Positions 11,049 to 53,604 of a DNA stretch of 64,000 nt are shown piece after piece. A program made the translations under genes and the position numbers. Every line of letters starts with the position of its first letter. Positions within the stretch are counted from its first letter, which is position 1. This DNA is from Lacticaseibacillus parakribbianus (lineage in GTDB: Bacteria; Bacillota; Bacilli; Lactobacillales; Lactobacillaceae), in NCBI RefSeq assembly GCF_025490915.1, contig NZ_JANQBA010000005.1:1-64000 (forward strand). The letters are read 5' to 3'. The notes below the pieces were generated by a model. It had not been told where the DNA came from. It saw nothing but the letters and a program-made list of their open reading frames with translations, and searched no databases.

Positions 11049-11528
11049 AGTTCCCCCTAAAAATTTTTACACATTAACGTCAGCCGTAGTCTACCATGGG
11101 CTGAAAACGAGTTCATTCACACTTTCATAGTCTCTTGATGGCCTAAGTTGTCACAAAATTATGAATATGAGTTTCAATCCATGAATGCGTCGGGGAACTA
11201 ATTGGGGACAGAGTTCACAAAATCGTACCACTCAAACGGCCTGTTGCCGTGAAAACAGTCTCCGCGGTTGTTAACTGAGCAAACGTTGACTGGGTGGCGG
11301 TATTCCCAGATCACGCCAAAATAATGTCCGAATATTAGAGGTAAAGAAAGTTAAAAATATTTTTAATTCTTTTTTGCCTGTATTAGAATTTTAATTACGG
11401 GCTAATTATGTTGTCATAATCGGGCCGTAATTGTGATTGCGTGTCAAGGCCTGGTGATCGAAGCCGATTCCATCACCGTCTACCGTCATTCGTGAGATGC
11501 CCGGGCCGACCGGTCTCGCCAGCCCGAC
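11049..11528 (-). promoter_or_regulatory. AT-rich region upstream of the pilus operon, with an inverted repeat
   Basis: About 400 bp (11080-11460) are much more AT-rich than the surrounding sequence. It contains AATTACGG (11393-11400) and CCGTAATT (11425-11432), a perfect 8-bp dyad with 24 bp between arms, plus poly-A/T tracts near 11350. No gene is seen. It is the likely control region of the pilus operon and may bind a regulator or nucleoid protein; this is inference. Confidence 0.45.
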
Positions 11529-11937
11529 GCTACTCGGTCGCTAACCCCGCTCGGCGCCGTTCTGGTTCGTCGAGCTCCGCAAGGCACGCTGGAGCGTCCA
11601 GCTAGGGCCGGCACTTGGGGCCAAGTCCAGCCCCAAGCGCCAGCCCGACGTTACTCGGTTCGCTAACCCCGCTCGGCGCCACTCTGGTTCGTCGAGCTCT
11701 GCCGAGCAACGCGAACACGACTAGCTAGGGCCGGCACTCGGGGCCAAGCCCAGCCCCAAGCGCCAACCCTACGCTACTCGGTTCGCTAACCCCGCTCGGC
11801 GCCACTCTGGTTCGTCGAGCTCCGCAAGGCAACGCTGGAGCGTCCAGCTAGGGCCGGCACTTGGGGCCAAGTCCACCCCCAAGCGCCAGCCCGACGCTAG
11901 CCGTCCTGCTAACTGCGCCTTGCTTTGCTCTGGGCAC
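11529..11937. repeat. Mosaic intergenic repeat, three tandem units of about 121-123 bp plus a partial unit
   Basis: Units start at 11529, 11650, 11773 and 11896 (partial). Each has GCTACTCGGTTCGCTAAC, a hairpin such as GCTCGGC/GCCGAGC (11671-11677 with 11701-11707), a TCGTCGAGCTC block, GCTAGGGCCGGCAC, and a second hairpin such as CTTGGGGC/GCCCCAAG (11614-11621 with 11630-11637). Members of the same family occur at eight other places in the window. Confidence 0.9.
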
Positions 11938-14963: not shown

Positions 14964-15338
14964 ATGAGCAAAGACTTCCACGACCTGGACCCTGAACGCC
15001 ACGGCGCCGCGCTGCGCCTGGACGCCGACTCCGCTCCGGCCATTCGCGCGACGGTGGCGGCGCTGGTCAAGGACCGCGACGAACGCGGTTGGACCCACCA
15101 CCTGAAGAACCTGGCGACGGCCCTGAACGTCGAGGCCGCCGAGGTGCTTGAAATTTTCACCTGGAAGGACGTCGGCGAGCCGCTGAGTGAACAGGAGGCG
15201 GCCCATGTCGCGGAGGAGCTGGCCGACGTCTTAATCTACGTCTTCGACATGTGTGCGAAGCTCGACTTGGACCCATTGAAGCTCATTGCGGCCAAGCAGG
15301 TGATCAACGCGCCGCGCCACCGCGGCCAGCGCAGCTGA
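14964..15338 (+). CDS. MazG-like nucleotide pyrophosphohydrolase
   Basis: 124 residues, all-alpha. EAAEVLEIFTW and EELADVLIYVFDM form the acidic metal-binding helices of the MazG/iMazG fold. The N-terminal region and DERGWTHHLKNLA match the short DCTPP1-like subgroup. It would hydrolyse non-canonical or excess NTPs to NMP and pyrophosphate, complementing the nearby Nudix enzyme in nucleotide pool cleaning. RBS TAGGAGA; 13 nt after the DUF72 stop, so it is probably in the same operon. Confidence 0.88.
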   Translation: MSKDFHDLDPERHGAALRLDADSAPAIRATVAALVKDRDERGWTHHLKNLATALNVEAAEVLEIFTWKDVGEPLSEQEAAHVAEELADVLIYVFDMCAKLDLDPLKLIAAKQVINAPRHRGQRS

Positions 15339-15344
15339 GAAGCG

Positions 15345-15555
15345 GCTAGCTTGCACCGGCACCCGGCCGCCAACACTTGCACGACGCGACGCGACCCGTT
15401 CCGCTGAACCCGCCGAGCTTCGCCGGCTAAACGTGCCCCGCTCGGCAACGCGGGAGCGGCTAGCTACGCACTGACGCCGAGGCATAACCCGCCTCAACGC
15501 CAGCGCTAGGCTACCCGTCCCGCTACACCCGCCGGGCTTCGACCTCTAAACAGCT
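15345..15555. repeat. Mosaic intergenic repeat (two units)
   Basis: Contains CGCTGAACCCGCCGAGCTTC, CTAAACGTGCC, GCAACGCGGGAGCGGCTAGCTACGCA and the hairpin GAGGC (15479-15483) / GCCTC (15491-15495), the family's second stem in a different sequence version. It lies after the MazG-like gene and before the metG promoter. Confidence 0.8.
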
Positions 15556-20800: not shown

Positions 20801-22421
20801 GATTGAAGGCACCAGCGGCAGCGCGATTACCCATACCCAGTTCGTCGCCACCATCCAAAAGCTGATCAGCGACGGCTACAACTTGGTCGCCGACGGCACG
20901 GTTGGCGCGACCTTCGACAAGGACGCGGCCACCGATCAGTACTTTGTCGTCAAGTTCGAGGCCGTGGCGCCGATTGCCGGCATGCCAGGCGGCGGTGTTC
21001 ACGCCTACCAAAAAATCCAGGTCCCGGACGTTGCGCCAAGCGTGACCGAGGACGGTTACTACAACAACCTGACGCCAGGGGAGCCGGCCGGTGGGATCCA
21101 CGTCTACCAGAAGACCCAGGTGCCGGACGTTGCGCCGAGCGTGACCGAGGACGGTTACTACAACAACCTGACGCCAGGGGAGCCGGCGGATGGTATCCAC
21201 GTCTACCAGAAAACGCAGGTGCCGGACGTCGCGCCAAGCGTGACCGAGGACGGTTACTACAACAACCTGACGCCAGGGGAGCCGGCGGGTGGCATTCGTG
21301 TCTACCAGAAAACGCAGGTGCCGGACGTCGCGCCAAGCGTGACCGAGGCCGACTACTACAACAATCTGACCCCAGGCAAGCTGGCGGGTGGCATTCACGT
21401 TTACCAGAAAACGCAGGTACCGGACCTCGCACCAACGGTGACGGCCGAGGACTACTACAATAATCTGACCCCAGGTGAGCTCGACGCAGGTGTCCGGGTT
21501 CGCAACCAGGTACCGGACGTCGCCCCGAGTGTGACCGAGGACGGTTACTACAACAATCTGACGCCAGGAGAGCCGGCGGATGGTATCCATGTTTACCGAA
21601 AAACTCAGGTACCAGATGTTGCGCCGAGTGTGACCGAGGACGGTTACTACAACAATCTGACCCCAGGAGAGCCGGCAGGTGGTATCCATGTTTACCGAAA
21701 GACTCAGGTGCCAGATGTTGCGCCGAGCGTGACCGAGGAAGGCTACTACAATAATCTGACGCCGGGTGAGCTCGACGAAGGCGTTCGGGTTCGCAACCAG
21801 GTGCCGGATGTTGCGCCATCGGTGACAGCCGAGGACTACTACGACAATCTGACACCAGGTGAGCTCGACGCAGGCGTTCGGGTTCGCAATCAGGTACCAG
21901 ACGTTGCGCCGAGCGTGACCGAGGCCGACTACTACAACAATCTGACACTAGGGGAGCTCGACGAAGGCATTCGGGTTCGCAACCAGGTACCGGACGTTGC
22001 GCCGAGCGTGACCGAGGCCGACTACTACAACAACCTGACGCCGGGTGAACTCGACGAAGGGGTTCGGGTTCGCAACCAGGTGCCGGACGTCGCACCAAGC
22101 GTGACGAAGGCCGCCTACTACGATCACCGCACCACCACGCCGGCGGTGACGGCGCTGACCCCGGGCAAGCAGCCGACCACCGGCGCCGGGACGGCGACCT
22201 CGACCACCCCGACCAGCCTGCCGGTGACCGGACCGCGGCACGGCGCGACGACCGCTGCCGCACTGGCACCGACCGCGGCGGCTGCGGCTCAAACAACAGG
22301 GCAGCTGCCGCAAACCGGCGAAACCACCCGCGGCGCATTGGCGCTGGCTGGCGTTGGACTTTTGAGCCTTTTGGGACTGGCCACGCTGGCTGAACGCAAA
22401 CGGCTGGCCGGCAAGCGGTAG
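17898..22421 (+). CDS. Large mucin-binding-type LPXTG surface protein
   Basis: 1,507 residues from the ATG with GGGAGG 8 nt upstream. A KxYKxGKxW-type signal peptide (KLYKAGGQW, residues 23-31) is probably cut near residue 52. A Thr/Ala-rich spacer (to about 190) precedes Mub/MucBP-like modules (about 190-1030) recognised by YTIEFV, YQIDLADAGLDPAKYEL and THRIIHYQRAD-type strands with PDVTSPVIAGYTAD. The stretch 1041-1405 is a tandem repeat of 33- and 31-residue units. The C-terminus has LPVTG (22218-22232), an Ala-rich linker, LPQTGE (22305-22322), a membrane segment and a basic tail. Such proteins bind mucus glycans or other surfaces; the actual ligand is unknown. Confidence 0.93.
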   Translation: MAKYEQGRAKMMAATAQRRLHFKLYKAGGQWVIAGIAAVTLGLAVGGRPVQAAATTDTTGTVVATAGEDGSGAASRTASAEGSAAAAPTATTVTGTGIETETTTKATGTPSKTLRATASVSGTATAAATAAAGTTPAGTATVATTPAGDAAVAATTTVAASTADVTATAEPSDPPADSAQSYRVEYVNVTKDTGNNQVLATVEGNAAEGPYQVDLKAAGLDPQKYELADAQPTSLPVAAAGTYQVQVQDKTVVLEEPLVVTTTIHYVAAEAGDNFSDYDFVAAGGFSKLADHPVVAESAVVTQSFTVTWDLARDEGVWYEPEALFPAVTSPTVEGMVPAVATYPTGDLRMGGHNYATGDMDIYVPYHRVGEKEALTYAAPTIDPEDAAAGIVKYHFVDLDNGGDEVATYSGHATGFSSRPDMLTSGSDGVSMGGVIAELAALYDYDPAGFAAEGGKANGLNEDGTAAQGEVIDSAVAAGSQITIELRHRHETGSVLFTQVVHFKDADGNTVADDQKWNLGWDTDTDLVREFGAKRHNRPYAPTYTPMGETGQGVRPIQQIAGMISTIDGVATTELAAVSYLDENGVPHDAPEVTVVYDNHPYTIEFVTTNDRGHQVVEGKPYLGQAKDGTYQIDLADAGLDPAKYELSDPTTTSIAVAADQTYQIEVKHRTQILTDEPLVTHRPVRYVRADDENVEVAPGFVIDQTYFKEIDLVTGNVVMYHVQNHFLDRPNPQIAGMVAERPNLSEIDVQDADTSWAPSENQPPIVVRYDAQPYTIEFVFDNGAGVTAPVGTAHLGSAIFDEGTYKIDLADGGLDTSVYQLVDPDTTSIDVAAGQTYQVMVQHPTALQPDKAITTHRIIHYQRADTHEKLLDDREITFTYIPEVDLIGGWILKWHRQADLPDVTSPVIAGYTADVPALNLMELNSETISMQPILIQPEVTVTYTPDVQKASVYFVGVGGRPLVPAMQIEGTSGSAITHTQFVATIQKLISDGYNLVADGTVGATFDKDAATDQYFVVKFEAVAPIAGMPGGGVHAYQKIQVPDVAPSVTEDGYYNNLTPGEPAGGIHVYQKTQVPDVAPSVTEDGYYNNLTPGEPADGIHVYQKTQVPDVAPSVTEDGYYNNLTPGEPAGGIRVYQKTQVPDVAPSVTEADYYNNLTPGKLAGGIHVYQKTQVPDLAPTVTAEDYYNNLTPGELDAGVRVRNQVPDVAPSVTEDGYYNNLTPGEPADGIHVYRKTQVPDVAPSVTEDGYYNNLTPGEPAGGIHVYRKTQVPDVAPSVTEEGYYNNLTPGELDEGVRVRNQVPDVAPSVTAEDYYDNLTPGELDAGVRVRNQVPDVAPSVTEADYYNNLTLGELDEGIRVRNQVPDVAPSVTEADYYNNLTPGELDEGVRVRNQVPDVAPSVTKAAYYDHRTTTPAVTALTPGKQPTTGAGTATSTTPTSLPVTGPRHGATTAAALAPTAAAAAQTTGQLPQTGETTRGALALAGVGLLSLLGLATLAERKRLAGKR
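21018..22110 (+). repeat. Tandem 99-bp and 93-bp coding repeats (eleven full units and a partial)
   Basis: Units begin QVPDVAPSVT and contain YYNNLTPGE. Two length classes alternate in blocks: 33 residues ending GGIHVYQKT and 31 residues ending DEGVRVRN. The order is four long, one short, two long, four short, then a degenerate end. High nucleotide identity between neighbours shows recent duplication. The region probably forms the wall-spanning stalk. Confidence 0.93.
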
Positions 22422-22807: not shown

Positions 22808-22964
22808 GAATATTCCTCCATATCAATTCTTACGAATACATTATATCAGACTGGTTAGCGGTGGGTGTCGTTGCAGGTGAAAAAATTGGGCGGAAGCCGG
22901 ATTGTGACCAAGCCGGTCTGCGTTGGGGATGCGAGGCCCGGGGCAAGGTCGGGCCAGGTGCCGG

Positions 22965-23365
22965 CGGAGGCTACCCGTCCCGCTAACCCCGCGCTTTTCC
23001 ACCCCCTAAACGGGTTCCACCGAGCAACGCGAACGCGTCCAGCTCGGTCAGACACTCGAAGCAAGGCACGCTTCAAGCGTCCGACCTACGCTAGCCGGTT
23101 CGCTAAATGCGCTCGGTTCCACCCCCTAAACGGGTTCCACCGAGCAACGCGGGAGCGGCTAGCTACGCACCGTCGCCGGGGCATAACCCGCCCCAACGCC
23201 AGCGCTAGGCAACCCGTCCCGCTAACCCCGCGCTTTTCCACCCTCTAAACGGGTTCCACCGAGCAACGCGAACGCGTCCAGCTCGGTCAGACACTCGAAG
23301 CAAAGGTCGCTTCAAGCGTCTGACCTACGCTAGCCGGTTCGCTAAATGCGCTCGGTTCCACCCTC
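22965..23365. repeat. Mosaic intergenic repeat cluster (about three and a half units)
   Basis: Alternates blocks CCCGTCCCGCTAACCCCGCG and CTAGCCGGTTCGCTAAATGC, each followed by a CCACC(C)TCTAAACGGGTTCCAC module, ACCGAGCAACGCG, and a hairpin. Stems are GAAGC/GCTTC (23058-23062 with 23070-23074), GGGGC/GCCCC (23178-23182 with 23190-23194) and GAAGC/GCTTC (23297-23301 with 23309-23313). Modules are shuffled between units. It fills the space between divergent genes. Confidence 0.9.
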
Positions 23366-25985: not shown

Positions 25986-26237
25986 ATGCCCATTACATTA
26001 GCAAGCATCAAGCAACAACTCGATAAAAAAATCGGGGAGAATTTGACCGTCGTTGCCCAAGCGGGTCGCAAGAAAGTGACTCGCCGCAAGGGAACCCTCA
26101 AAGAAACTTACCCAGCAATTTTCGTGGTCGACCTTGATCAAGACGAGAATTCTTTCGAGCGGGTATCCTACAGTTATGCAGACCTCCTCACCAAATCGAT
26201 TCAGATCAAGTTTGATGACGAAGAAAAGGCTTCTTAG
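25986..26237 (+). CDS. veg: Veg protein
   Basis: 83 residues. Small basic N-terminal half (LASIKQQLDKKIGENL, GRKKVTRRKG) with acidic end, typical of the Veg family found after ksgA. In Bacillus subtilis Veg influences biofilm matrix gene expression; its molecular role here is unknown. The ATG at 25986 follows AGAGGTGA. Strong double promoter and own terminator. Confidence 0.93.
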   Translation: MPITLASIKQQLDKKIGENLTVVAQAGRKKVTRRKGTLKETYPAIFVVDLDQDENSFERVSYSYADLLTKSIQIKFDDEEKAS

Positions 26238-26266
26238 AAAGACGAACTGGGTGTCGTCTTTTTTTG
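26238..26266 (+). terminator. Intrinsic terminator of veg
   Basis: Arms AAAGACGA (26238-26245) and TCGTCTTT with an 8-nt loop and a long T run. Confidence 0.9.
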
Positions 26267-26269
26267 TGC

Positions 26270-26540
26270 CCAGAGCGCAGGCCGGCGGGTGTAGCGAACC
26301 GAGTAGCGTCGCACTGGTGCTTGAAGCGGTCCTTGCTTCGAGTGCCAGTGCTAGCTAGTCGCGTTCGCGTTGCCGGCGGCAGCTCGACGATGTTCAGAGC
26401 GCAGAAGCGCGAACTTAGCGGGACGGGTAGCCCGGCCGTGACCCTTGGGCCCTGCACGGTGGCCCAAGGGTCACGGCGCAGCAGGCCGCTCCCGCGTTGC
26501 GCTTCGTAGCTCGACGTGCCCAGAGCGCAGGCCGGCGGGT
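26270..26540. repeat. Mosaic intergenic repeat, reverse orientation (two units)
   Basis: Reverse-complement copies of the family: CCAGAGCGCAGGCCGGCGGG, GCGAACCGAGTAGCG, hairpin GAAGC (26323-26327) / GCTTC (26335-26339), TAGCTAGTCGCGTTCGCGTTG, then a second unit with a perfect 14-bp stem GTGACCCTTGGGCC (26439-26452) / GGCCCAAGGGTCAC (26461-26474). Confidence 0.88.
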
Positions 26541-26578
26541 TTCACTCGCCGGGGTGAAGTGAGCCGGTCAACCAGGTT

Positions 26579-27280
26579 GAATAGGGAAAGGGCGGCGTGA
26601 AGTTGACAAGACTTCGCGCCGCCCTTTGCGTTACCACGCGCGGTGGCCCATTCCAGGACGCACCAAATCCGCCGGCGGGAAGTACCCCGGCGGCGGAGCT
26701 GGGCATTGTGGTCACGTGGGGGTCTACAAGGCGTTGGGTGGCCAGGCTCCTGTCCCACCGCGACGCTGCAGCGCCGCAGTGGGACCAAAACCAGGTCCCG
26801 CACCTGTCCGGCACCGGCTGGCAGCTTGCAACTGCCGCGCGGTGCCGCCGTCCCAACTCCTGCGGACGCGCCGCGGGGCTGGGGTCTTACCCTCCTGACT
26901 CAGGACTGCGCCGTGCGGTGACATCCACACGCCTGAGCAGGCGGTCGTGCTTTGGCTCTGAAACGGGTTACGCCGCCTGAGCCAGCACACCTTCCGGGCC
27001 TCCGGAACGGTTTGTTGTGCTGGCCGGTACGCGTCCCGGCCGCCTCTCCCGCCCGCAGCTACCTCCGTACTTGGAGTTGGACGTTTGATGAAACTGCAAC
27101 CGGTTATCCACTACGATTAATGATTCCCGCCCAAGGTACGACGGGTTCCACTGATAGCATCGGACGGGGCCGGGCTGGGGCCTGGTCTGCGTGAGGTAGC
27201 GTGGCGCTTGCCACTGGATCGCCGCCGAAGAAGGGTTTGTCACGGTGGCCGGCCACCGACCCCTATCCTAGTGATCACTT
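26579..27280 (-). ncRNA. Candidate large structured non-coding RNA (about 700 nt)
   Basis: No frame has a convincing gene. The stretch holds many perfect nested inverted repeats: 26668-26697 (TCCGCCG..CGGCGGA), 26753-26784 (TCCCAC..GTGGGA), 26809-26847 (CGGCACCG..CGGTGCCG enclosing GGCAG/CTGCC), 26981-27024 (GCCAGCACA..TGTGCTGGC enclosing TTCCGG/CCGGAA), 27201-27214 (GTGGC/GCCAC) and 27244-27257. On the minus strand it starts after a plausible promoter (27287-27315) and ends with a 17-bp hairpin (26587-26603 with 26611-26627). The extreme ends can pair: GGATAGGG (27261-27268) with CCCTATTC (26579-26586), one G-U. RNase P RNA, tmRNA and SRP RNA signatures were looked for and not seen. It may be a divergent ROOL/GOLLD-like or a new ornate RNA. 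Strand is inferred. Confidence 0.5.
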
Positions 27281-27286
27281 GAGTTT

Positions 27287-27315
27287 AGCTTAGCAGGTAA
27301 GCGGTTACCTGGCAA
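27287..27315 (-). promoter_or_regulatory. Candidate promoter of the large RNA
   Basis: Minus strand: TTGCCA (27310-27315), 17-bp spacer ending in TGC, then TAAGCT (27287-27292). The -35 matches five of six consensus bases and the TGn extends a weak -10. The predicted start is near 27280. Confidence 0.45.
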
Positions 27316-27352
27316 ATTTTAAGCTCGGACTGCGGCATTTTTTTCGCGGGGC

Positions 27353-31689: not shown

Positions 31690-31990
31690 TCGTGGTCGGA
31701 GGGCCCCGGGCTGACGCTAGCCGGCCGGCTAAGCGCTCGGCTCCACGCTAAACGCGTTCCGAAGCGCATCGCCGACGCGGCTAGCTCAGGCCGGACACTG
31801 AGCCAAACCCAGGCTCAATGCCCAGCCTGACGCTAGCCGGCCGGCTAACCGCGCTTCTCCACGCTAAACGGGCGCCGCAGCGCAACGCGGGAGCGGCCTG
31901 CTACGCCGCGTCATTTGGGCCAAGTGCGGGCCCAATTGCCACGGCTAGGCAGTCCGTCCCGCTAACCCCGCGCTGCTCTGCCCTCTAATT
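31690..31990. repeat. Mosaic intergenic repeat (two and a half units)
   Basis: GACGCTAGCCGGCCGGCTAA blocks, CTCCACGCTAAACG modules, and hairpins TGAGCC/GGCTCA (31799-31804 with 31812-31817) and TTGGGCC/GGCCCAA (31915-31921 with 31929-31935). A first-stem version GCGCT/AGCGC occurs near 31850-31880. The cluster separates divergent genes. Confidence 0.88.
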
Positions 31991-35699: not shown

Positions 35700-36115
35700 T
35701 TTGAGTCGTTGCGCTTCAGCCGTCCCGCTAAATGCGCCGGCTTCCGCTCTGGTCGTCGAGCTTCAGCCGGCAACGCGGGAGCGTCTAGCTACGCACCGCG
35801 ACTCGGGACCAAGTGCGGGTTCCAAGCCGCGGCGCTAGGCTAGCCGTCCCGCTAAATACGCCGGCTTCCGCTCTGGTAAACGGGTTCCAAAGCGCAACGC
35901 GGCTGCGTCCAGCTAGGGCTAGCACTCGGGGCAAGGTGCCGCCCCAAGCGCCAGCCCTACGCTGACCTTGCCGCTAAACACGCGCTTTTCCACCCTGGTC
36001 GTCGAGCTCCGCAAGGCACCGCGAACGCGATTAGCTAGCGGTGTCACTCGAAGCAAGGACCGCTTCAAGCGCCACCGCTACGCTAATCGGTTCGCTAAAT
36101 ACGCCTTGTTCCGCT
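35700..36115. repeat. Mosaic intergenic repeat cluster (about four units)
   Basis: Hairpins GCCGGCT/AGCCGGC (35736-35742 with 35765-35771), GGGACC/GGTTCC (35805-35810 with 35818-35823, one G-T), GGGGC/GCCCC (35928-35932 with 35941-35945) and GAAGC/GCTTC (36050-36054 with 36062-36066). TCGTCGAGCT and TAAACGGGTTCC modules alternate between units. Confidence 0.9.
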
Positions 36116-36240
36116 CTGGCATTTGTGTTCCCCCGCCACTAATGTTAAGATGGTTAGGACACTTTTCAGAAAATAGCCGTCATTGACCCGGGGAGGCCTT
36201 GGTTGAACGCGGCTTTTCGCACAATCAAGGAGGAACCTAT

Positions 36241-51933: not shown

Positions 51934-51950
51934 CCAGGGCGTAAGACCGC

Positions 51951-52150
51951 GCTGCGGTCTGGAGCTCGACGTAACCAGAGCGCAGCGGCGCGATTTTAGC
52001 CGGACGATTAGCGTTGGGTTGGGCATTGGGCCTGAACTTGGCCCGGTGTCCGACCCGAGCTAATCGTTCCGGCGTTGCGCAGCGGAGCTCGACGAAACCA
52101 TAGCGCAGGTCGGCGGGATTAGCGGGACGGGTAGCCCGGTGACCAGCCCA
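51951..52150. repeat. Mosaic intergenic repeat, reverse orientation, with a leading hairpin
   Basis: AGACCGC/GCGGTCT hairpin (about 51951-51970), then AGCTCGACGTAACCAGAGCG, TTAGCCGGACGATTAGCG, stem GGGCC/GGCCC (52028-52032 with 52040-52044), GCTAATCGTTCCGGCGTTGCG, and a second partial unit GAGCTCGACGAAACCATAGC to GGGACGGGTAGCC. Confidence 0.85.
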
Positions 52151-53122: not shown

Positions 53123-53203
53123 GGAAGACGGGTCGCCTGACGCGGTTCCAACGCGCGAGGCAAATTGCTTGACGGAAAATTGGTCTGGTGTTAAGCTACA
53201 CTC

Positions 53204-53604
53204 GAATGATTGTTCTTGTGCGGGGAGGCGGCCAAGGCCTTGGCTGCCGCAGTATCCACCGCGCGGGACTGCGCCAGCGGTTCGCACCAAGGCGACGGCC
53301 CCCACCCATGCCATGCCGCAGTGTATCGTCACACGGCTTTCAACTCGAGAGTTTTCGTGCAACCCCGGGACCATACTTAGGGGAAGACCAGGGACGCCGC
53401 ACCACCCCACCGGCTGCAGGCCGGCCACCGCGACTCCCAGACGAGTTAGCCGCGCGGATGACCGGAACCGCTGGGCGCAATTGCACCACTTTGGTTAGAC
53501 GAAGCCAGTCACGTAACCGAATCAGAACGCGGCCGCCGGGGGCTCACCCCTCGGTGGCTTTGCCGCGCCCGGCGCAACCAATTGCGGTTGCGCCGGGCGT
53601 TTTT
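53204..53604 (+). ncRNA. Candidate ~400-nt untranslated RNA or long leader of the MFS gene
   Basis: No supportable gene. Promoter TTGACG (53169-53174), 17-bp spacer, TAAGCT (53192-53197). Internal hairpins include GCGGCCAAGG/CCTTGGCTGCCGC (about 53225-53248), GCC-CCG-GGG / CCC-CGG-GGC (about 53531-53557) and others. It ends in a perfect 14-bp terminator, CGCCCGGCGCAACC (53566-53579) / GGTTGCGCCGGGCG (53586-53599), with five T. No T-box AGGGTGG motif, RNase P or tmRNA signature was found. It may be an independent RNA or an attenuated leader for the MFS gene 80 bp later. Confidence 0.45.
53566..53604 (+). terminator. Strong intrinsic terminator upstream of the MFS gene
   Basis: Perfect 14-bp stem, 6-nt loop, five T (see the RNA entry). 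Confidence 0.92.

Follow-up and report, generated by a model that had tools for sequence, protein, structure and literature searches.

The window analysed here, a stretch of 64,000 nucleotides from Lacticaseibacillus parakribbianus, contains at positions 26657-27327, on the minus strand, a noncoding-RNA gene that runs from a promoter to a terminator-like hairpin and belongs to a dispersed family. This RNA gene family is so far found in two related lactobacilli and has no match to any known RNA family. We consider, with a probability of roughly 0.6, that it is a lineage-restricted multigene family of self-contained noncoding RNA genes, the product of which is most likely an abundant folded RNA that acts in trans and whose dosage is set by gene copy number. 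The elements of the window copy, with a nearby hairpin and a second copy present in the same window, are as follows.

26657..27327, minus strand: whole unit of the window type, group A; the three other complete L. parakribbianus copies, about 96% identical, have their ends at almost the same positions.
27323..27327, minus strand: CGAGC box marking the left edge of the unit; most copies have GYGAG here (by eye).
27310..27315, minus strand: -35 box TTGCCA; TTGACG in most other copies.
27287..27292, minus strand: -10 box TAAGCT, with a 17-nt spacer.
27270..27279, minus strand: palindrome AGTGATCACT close to where the transcript is predicted to start; by itself it is not predicted to fold.
27053..27221, minus strand: conserved structured core, a full-length match to covariance models R1 and R2 (E 7.3e-19 with R2).
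27201..27214, minus strand: core hairpin GTGGC-AAGC-GCCAC, with both-side changes among paralogs in all six helix pairs.
26668..26697, minus strand: 3' terminator-like hairpin; the CTTTTG that follows it in siblings L020 and L022 is lost in the window copy.
26587..26627, no strand assigned: 17-bp hairpin on the veg side of the element, beyond the end of the repeated unit and not shared with the other copies.
53155..53604, plus strand: second copy in the window, group D; L. kribbianus has a copy (L089) at the same site.
53169-53174, 53192-53197, 53270-53455 and 53600-53604, plus strand: -35 box, -10 box, core and terminator hairpin with T-run of the second copy, respectively.

The window copy is flanked by what we take to be veg (ending at 26237) and a GntR-type gene (starting at about 27421), names that are partly those of the initial annotation. 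It is convergent with veg and belongs to the copies that have lost the T-run; the 17-bp hairpin between both may act as a stop for transcription coming from either side. At the position of the 27270..27279 palindrome, other copies show small palindromic variants (AGATgattATCT, GAATgattATTC; by eye). The initial annotation, to which the repetition of this stretch was invisible, was right that a real feature exists here and wrong about its ends and its kind. Its proposal of a large, promoter-driven, multi-helix structured RNA holds as a sequence feature, now that 72 copies with the full core are known and its helices are seen to covary, but not with the ends proposed: the 17-bp hairpin thought to form the 3' side of the RNA lies outside the unit, which stops at about 26657, and the 8-bp stem supposed to close the two ends has only seven of its eight pairs, one partner (26579-26586) being also outside the repeated unit. 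The minus-strand promoter that it read, TTGCCA-17-TAAGCT, is indeed present (27310-27315 and 27287-27292). The six nested inverted repeats that it described as perfect all refold as hairpins, the four long ones (26668-26697, 26753-26784, 26809-26847, and 26981-27024) with -22.1, -27.3, -28.7, and -26.1 kcal/mol and the two short ones (27201-27214 and 27244-27257) with -6.9 and -6.4 kcal/mol, although the first, third, and fourth do so with a mismatch or bulges. The minus strand of the stretch folds better than 20 of 20 dinucleotide shuffles (z -6.9), and the plus strand has a z of -4.7.

Homologs with covarying pairs, which the initial annotation had named as a check on its claim, occur across the genome. 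A DNA search of 60 genomes retrieved three other complete L. parakribbianus copies with 96% identity to the window copy, four part copies in this species, all of them running into contig ends, and short matches in L. kribbianus YH-lac21. Covariance models were then made in three rounds. R1 yielded 38 L. parakribbianus and 7 L. kribbianus matches at E<=0.01; R2 yielded 59 (58 full-length and one partial) and 14, respectively, at E<=0.1, numbers that did not change with more candidates; and R3 yielded 53 and 12, missing the six L. parakribbianus group A copies and two of the five in L. kribbianus. R3 adds no new place and only reads the partial match of R2 as a core truncated where a contig begins, so that with these models, which could miss more distant relatives, the census seems to have reached saturation. 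In the search of 30 genomes of the genus, the L. parakribbianus genome has 58 full-length core matches plus copies cut at contig ends, L. kribbianus YH-lac21 has 14, and the 28 other genomes have none with models R1-R3 (up to 92-124 candidates per genome). Nothing appeared beyond the two species in 40 genomes of the order (up to 93 candidates); this search and that of the genus are stronger than the one of 397 genomes of the family, also negative, where only seven candidates were scored per genome, making it shallow and weak evidence of absence. An exact-pattern scan of genome contigs with one group C/D pattern, which may leave out the L. parakribbianus genome itself, found L. kribbianus only (five places). 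Viral contigs gave no match to two exact patterns, taken from groups B and C/D, nor did phages to two blastn queries or plasmids to blastn. Likewise, this RNA family is not described, by title or abstract, in the open-licence papers that we searched.

All 69 copies with a readable promoter, among the 72 full-core copies (58 from L. parakribbianus and 14 from L. kribbianus), have a sigma-A-type promoter with a spacer of 17 nt, a count in which a script took the best -10 box among spacers of 16-18 nt and the promoters of L077 and L086 were corrected. Their -35 box is TTGACG, TTGACA, or TTGCCA and their -10 box mostly TACACT, TAAGCT, TACGAT, TACATT, TAAGAT, or TATGAT; most copies also have a GYGAG box about 15 nt upstream of the -35 (by eye). 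The three remaining copies are L062, truncated by a contig end, L072, which has a different 5' part, and L032, with an apparent deletion. In L032 (L. kribbianus C6:5000-5184), the -10 box and the 5' part are missing and the -35 region joins the core directly at GACGGG, which looks like the result of a deletion between short repeats. Aligned copies start with (G)CGAG just upstream of the -35 and end with ..GGTGCGTC, followed by Ts in most of them. Measured in bits per 15-nt block over 21 copies of group B, conservation increases sharply at -115 from the core start (0.25 to 1.57), is about 1.9 bits from -10 to +125, 1.2-1.9 up to +200 and 0.6-1.3 between +200 and +290, rises to 1.8 bits at the hairpin arm GGTGGCTTCGGCG, and falls to about 0.95 in the terminator and <0.5 past +335. 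The edges of the unit are therefore close to the promoter and the T-run.

A terminator of their own is found in 56 of the 72 copies. In groups B-D, counted by hand, it is present in 31 of 32 copies with a co-directional next predicted gene versus 19 of 29 convergent ones (p 0.002), and over all 72 copies in 34 of 39 versus 22 of 33 (p 0.049). Such an excess before co-directional genes is what one would expect of real transcription with costly read-through. Some other copies that have lost the T-run have, near the end of the neighbouring gene, a hairpin that may substitute for the terminator (by eye).

The claim of a structured RNA is carried by covariation. In 16 diverse cores, the 24 named pairs are paired in 92.0% of cells, compared with 78.3% after shuffling and 35-45% after sliding, with 57 double-change cells versus 16.9 in shuffled alignments and a covariation score of 0.449 that not one of 500 shuffles attained (shuffled score 0.192). 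The second alignment, made from 15 centres, gave 90.4% paired cells versus 80.0% and 26 double-change cells versus 7.8, two of its five measures (pairs with double change and further pair types) not exceeding the shuffles. These counts lean to the favourable side, since the sequences tested had also served for picking the structures by eye, and kinship makes the copies non-independent. The fold z-score alone is weak evidence: it ranges from -0.3 to -5.4 in single copies (17 copies, six of them between -0.3 and -1.8) and from +0.6 to -6.2 in six flanking controls, one of which has -6.2 and another -2.7. Together, these sequence comparisons show a dispersed structured unit, from promoter to terminator, that looks selected as RNA.

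A crude hexamer gene caller detected no coding-like ORF over the core in any of the 72 copies, in agreement with the initial annotation, which had seen no supportable gene here, and contrary to the decayed gene, a match to which it had named as a refutation. Beside the window copy, this caller missed veg (86 aa) and took the next gene, which has the same orientation. We also considered a leaderless peptide starting from the conserved ATGATTATC; close copies that differ by a one-base indel (AAGGTCC / AACGGTCC) tell against it, as does the 5' palindrome. In 53 of 70 copies, the predicted gene upstream has the orientation of the copy. The downstream one does so in 39 of 72, with 33 in the opposite orientation; given this near-even distribution, the copies are not cis-acting leaders such as riboswitches or T-boxes.

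Five sites are common to both species, with the element in the same orientation (L021/L029, L023/L028, L030/L061, L086/L038, and L089/L083). In a tree of the 72 cores (267 columns, with firm support on only 26 of 69 inner branches), none of these five pairs are sisters and the species label changes 3 times, compared with 13.1 after shuffling of the labels. The copies at shared sites are thus closer to the other copies of their own genome than to each other, the sequence pattern of concerted evolution. Some copies look mosaic: L084 combines the 5' core of L080 with the middle of L075 (by eye).

At the level of sequence features and covariation, each gene thus has a sigma-A-type promoter and, in most cases, an intrinsic terminator; the transcript predicted between them, some 400-620 nt long, has a conserved multi-helix core followed by a more variable 3' part. 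Transcription is inferred because promoter and terminator have been maintained. The genes are dispersed over intergenic sites, in most cases directly behind a gene of the same orientation, and are alike within each genome; they were probably amplified and homogenised. From the self-contained form, the concerted evolution, and the absence of an orientation bias, we infer an abundant folded RNA that would act in trans, alone or with a protein, copy number probably serving as dosage.

The main rival, which we hold to be unlikely but the most serious one, is a selfish mobile RNA gene, where the RNA serves its own spread by means of a recombinase (from the host or an insertion sequence) or a reverse transcriptase provided in trans, without any host function. 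The upkeep of promoter and structure would also be expected from such an element if both serve its spread. The sharp edges and scattered sites are compatible with it, as is the existence of sister-species sites without the element. We extracted the flanks of 12 L. parakribbianus copies and searched 11 of them (L057 was left out); eight of these 11 sites were located in L. kribbianus and the element was absent from all eight. The L. kribbianus spacers between the matched flanks are short at the L058 (179 bp), L041 (138), L031 (82), and L047 (about 115) sites and longer at L075, L050, and L042, with a different repeat (by eye) at the L054 site, the junctions not being base-exact because intergenic DNA has diverged; L055, L033, and L069 gave no usable flank pair. 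Also in favour of selfish spread, the two species have, at the convergent site L032/L040, copies from different groups that point in opposite directions, and there are dead-looking copies, L032 by deletion and L072 by truncation. Nevertheless, target-site duplications are not above chance (mean longest shared word 4.11 versus 4.24 permuted, in the 56 copies with both edges readable), which argues against an ordinary MITE, and the unit ends, compared by eye only, are at most weakly alike and show no clear terminal inverted repeats. Simple retrotransposition of the transcript fits poorly, as the promoter, outside the predicted transcript, belongs to the shared unit. The retention of terminators where they are needed and the five long-held shared sites also speak against selfish spread.

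Less probable still, the copies might be trans-acting regulatory RNAs in which a conserved scaffold is followed by a variable 3' stretch that would pair with a different target in each case, in the manner of an expanded family of sibling sRNAs. As this partly falls within the reading that we prefer, the probabilities of the readings overlap. The 21 group B copies, near-invariant from about -10 to +125 and strongly variable at about +200 to +290, have such an arrangement, but the variable part may be just a less constrained helix, and the likeness of copies within each genome opposes target specialisation. Somewhat less plausible again is an interspersed structured repeat comparable to BOX or ERIC, with an incidental promoter and terminator and effects on neighbouring genes. 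Known repeat families described in PMC3049150 have similarly dispersed, intergenic, and modular copies; against this stand the invariable 17-nt promoter spacer, the frequency of own terminators, and the lack of clear bias in downstream gene orientation. A remnant of a known housekeeping RNA, of a phage RNA (ROOL, GOLLD, or OLE), or of a decayed protein gene, which size, promoter, and branching might recall, is very improbable, given the 72 cores without coding-like ORF and the Rfam results.

In these Rfam searches, no family reached its threshold at gathering scores, and the kinship with ROOL, GOLLD, and OLE advanced by the initial annotation finds no support, none of them being even among the permissive matches. 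The latter (E<=5) were 11 for the window stretch, all far under gathering scores and taken as chance: seven miRNA models, sbcD twice, Rubella_3, and Transposase-2, the best being a miRNA model with E 0.0039 and 29 of 110 bits. Permissive searches of two paralogs gave none, and group II intron and HEARO models did not match. Rfam 15 presumably includes the models for ROOL, GOLLD, OLE, group II introns, and HEARO.

No single known system among those compared matches this family; the nearest kinds are multicopy noncoding RNA genes and interspersed structured repeats. ROOL and a 520-nt lncRNA of L. salivarius, which we take to be a ROOL, are likewise large structured RNAs without known function in lactobacilli, unlike the present family in that the latter has about 60 copies across one genome and no Rfam match. 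ROOL is described from phages and prophages, often near tRNA islands, in PMC12286853, which cites the L. salivarius lncRNA paper for it, and the lncRNA is placed on a megaplasmid in PMC5643018. GOLLD and OLE are also large ornate RNAs, here without Rfam match; the description of GOLLD in PMC12286853 concerns phages and prophages, not a dispersed multicopy family as here. Sibling sRNAs such as LhrC and csRNAs also consist of several homologous RNA genes per genome. LhrC has five copies (LhrC1-5), and both kinds are much shorter than 400-620 nt, whereas here we count about 60 copies with predicted transcripts of that length. Homologous RNA genes with their own promoter and, in 56 of 72 copies, terminator are found here as sequence features; for csRNAs, PMC4211561 gives two to six per species. 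BOX, RUP, SPRITE, ERIC, and Correia elements share with this family dispersal, intergenic location, and RNA structure, BOX being also modular. PMC3049150 presents BOX-like families as short elements, probably MITEs, that have terminal inverted repeats and duplicate their target; here, in contrast, a whole promoter-to-terminator unit is dispersed and target duplications were not found. rRNA operons are likewise multicopy RNA genes in concerted evolution within a genome, with up to 15 copies in some bacteria (PMC6002687). Their function is universal, whereas this family was found in two species only; paralogs closer than orthologs are found here at all five shared sites.

In the compact genomes of bacteria, a noncoding RNA gene that stands alone normally has one to few copies. 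Around 60 paralogous large structured RNA genes in a single 2.8-Mb genome would therefore represent an extreme amplification of an RNA gene, occupying about 1% of the genome by a rough estimate (length x copies). In the boldest reading, to which we give slightly less than even odds, this would be a new kind of feature, some 60 large multi-domain noncoding RNA genes in one Lacticaseibacillus lineage that would still spread without target duplication, be kept uniform by gene conversion, and produce an RNA possibly as abundant as rRNA. Such an amplification would open tests of whether RNA genes can behave as mobile elements, of the reason why so many copies are kept, and of how the family originated in one lineage, and the many divergent copies offer a ready alignment for solving the structure.

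Several other motifs accompany the copies. Apart from the four of window type, all group A copies, seven in number (L019, L021, L023, L025, and L027 in L. kribbianus; L028 and L029 in L. parakribbianus) have, some 30-70 nt downstream of the terminator, a palindrome like TACTTTGCNTTRCAAAGTA, which to our eye resembles a PadR operator; L023 and L028 precede a padR-looking gene. The left flanks of L028, L023, L059, and L067 have in common an upstream TGTAACNAAATCTG motif that, on the opposite strand, resembles a portion of a divergent promoter (both by eye). A second, apparently unrelated dispersed repeat consists of degenerate units of about 120-125 bp, tandem in places and 62-95% alike (TRF, local blastn), which in the window lie at 11517-11932, 15310-15552, 22957-23351, 26265-26560, 31700-31986, 35714-36119, and 51947-52139; similar units flank the L. 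kribbianus copies L019, L086, and L087. At 20998-22121, the window also contains a 99-bp unit (33 codons) repeated in a long tandem array, which may belong to a repetitive surface protein.
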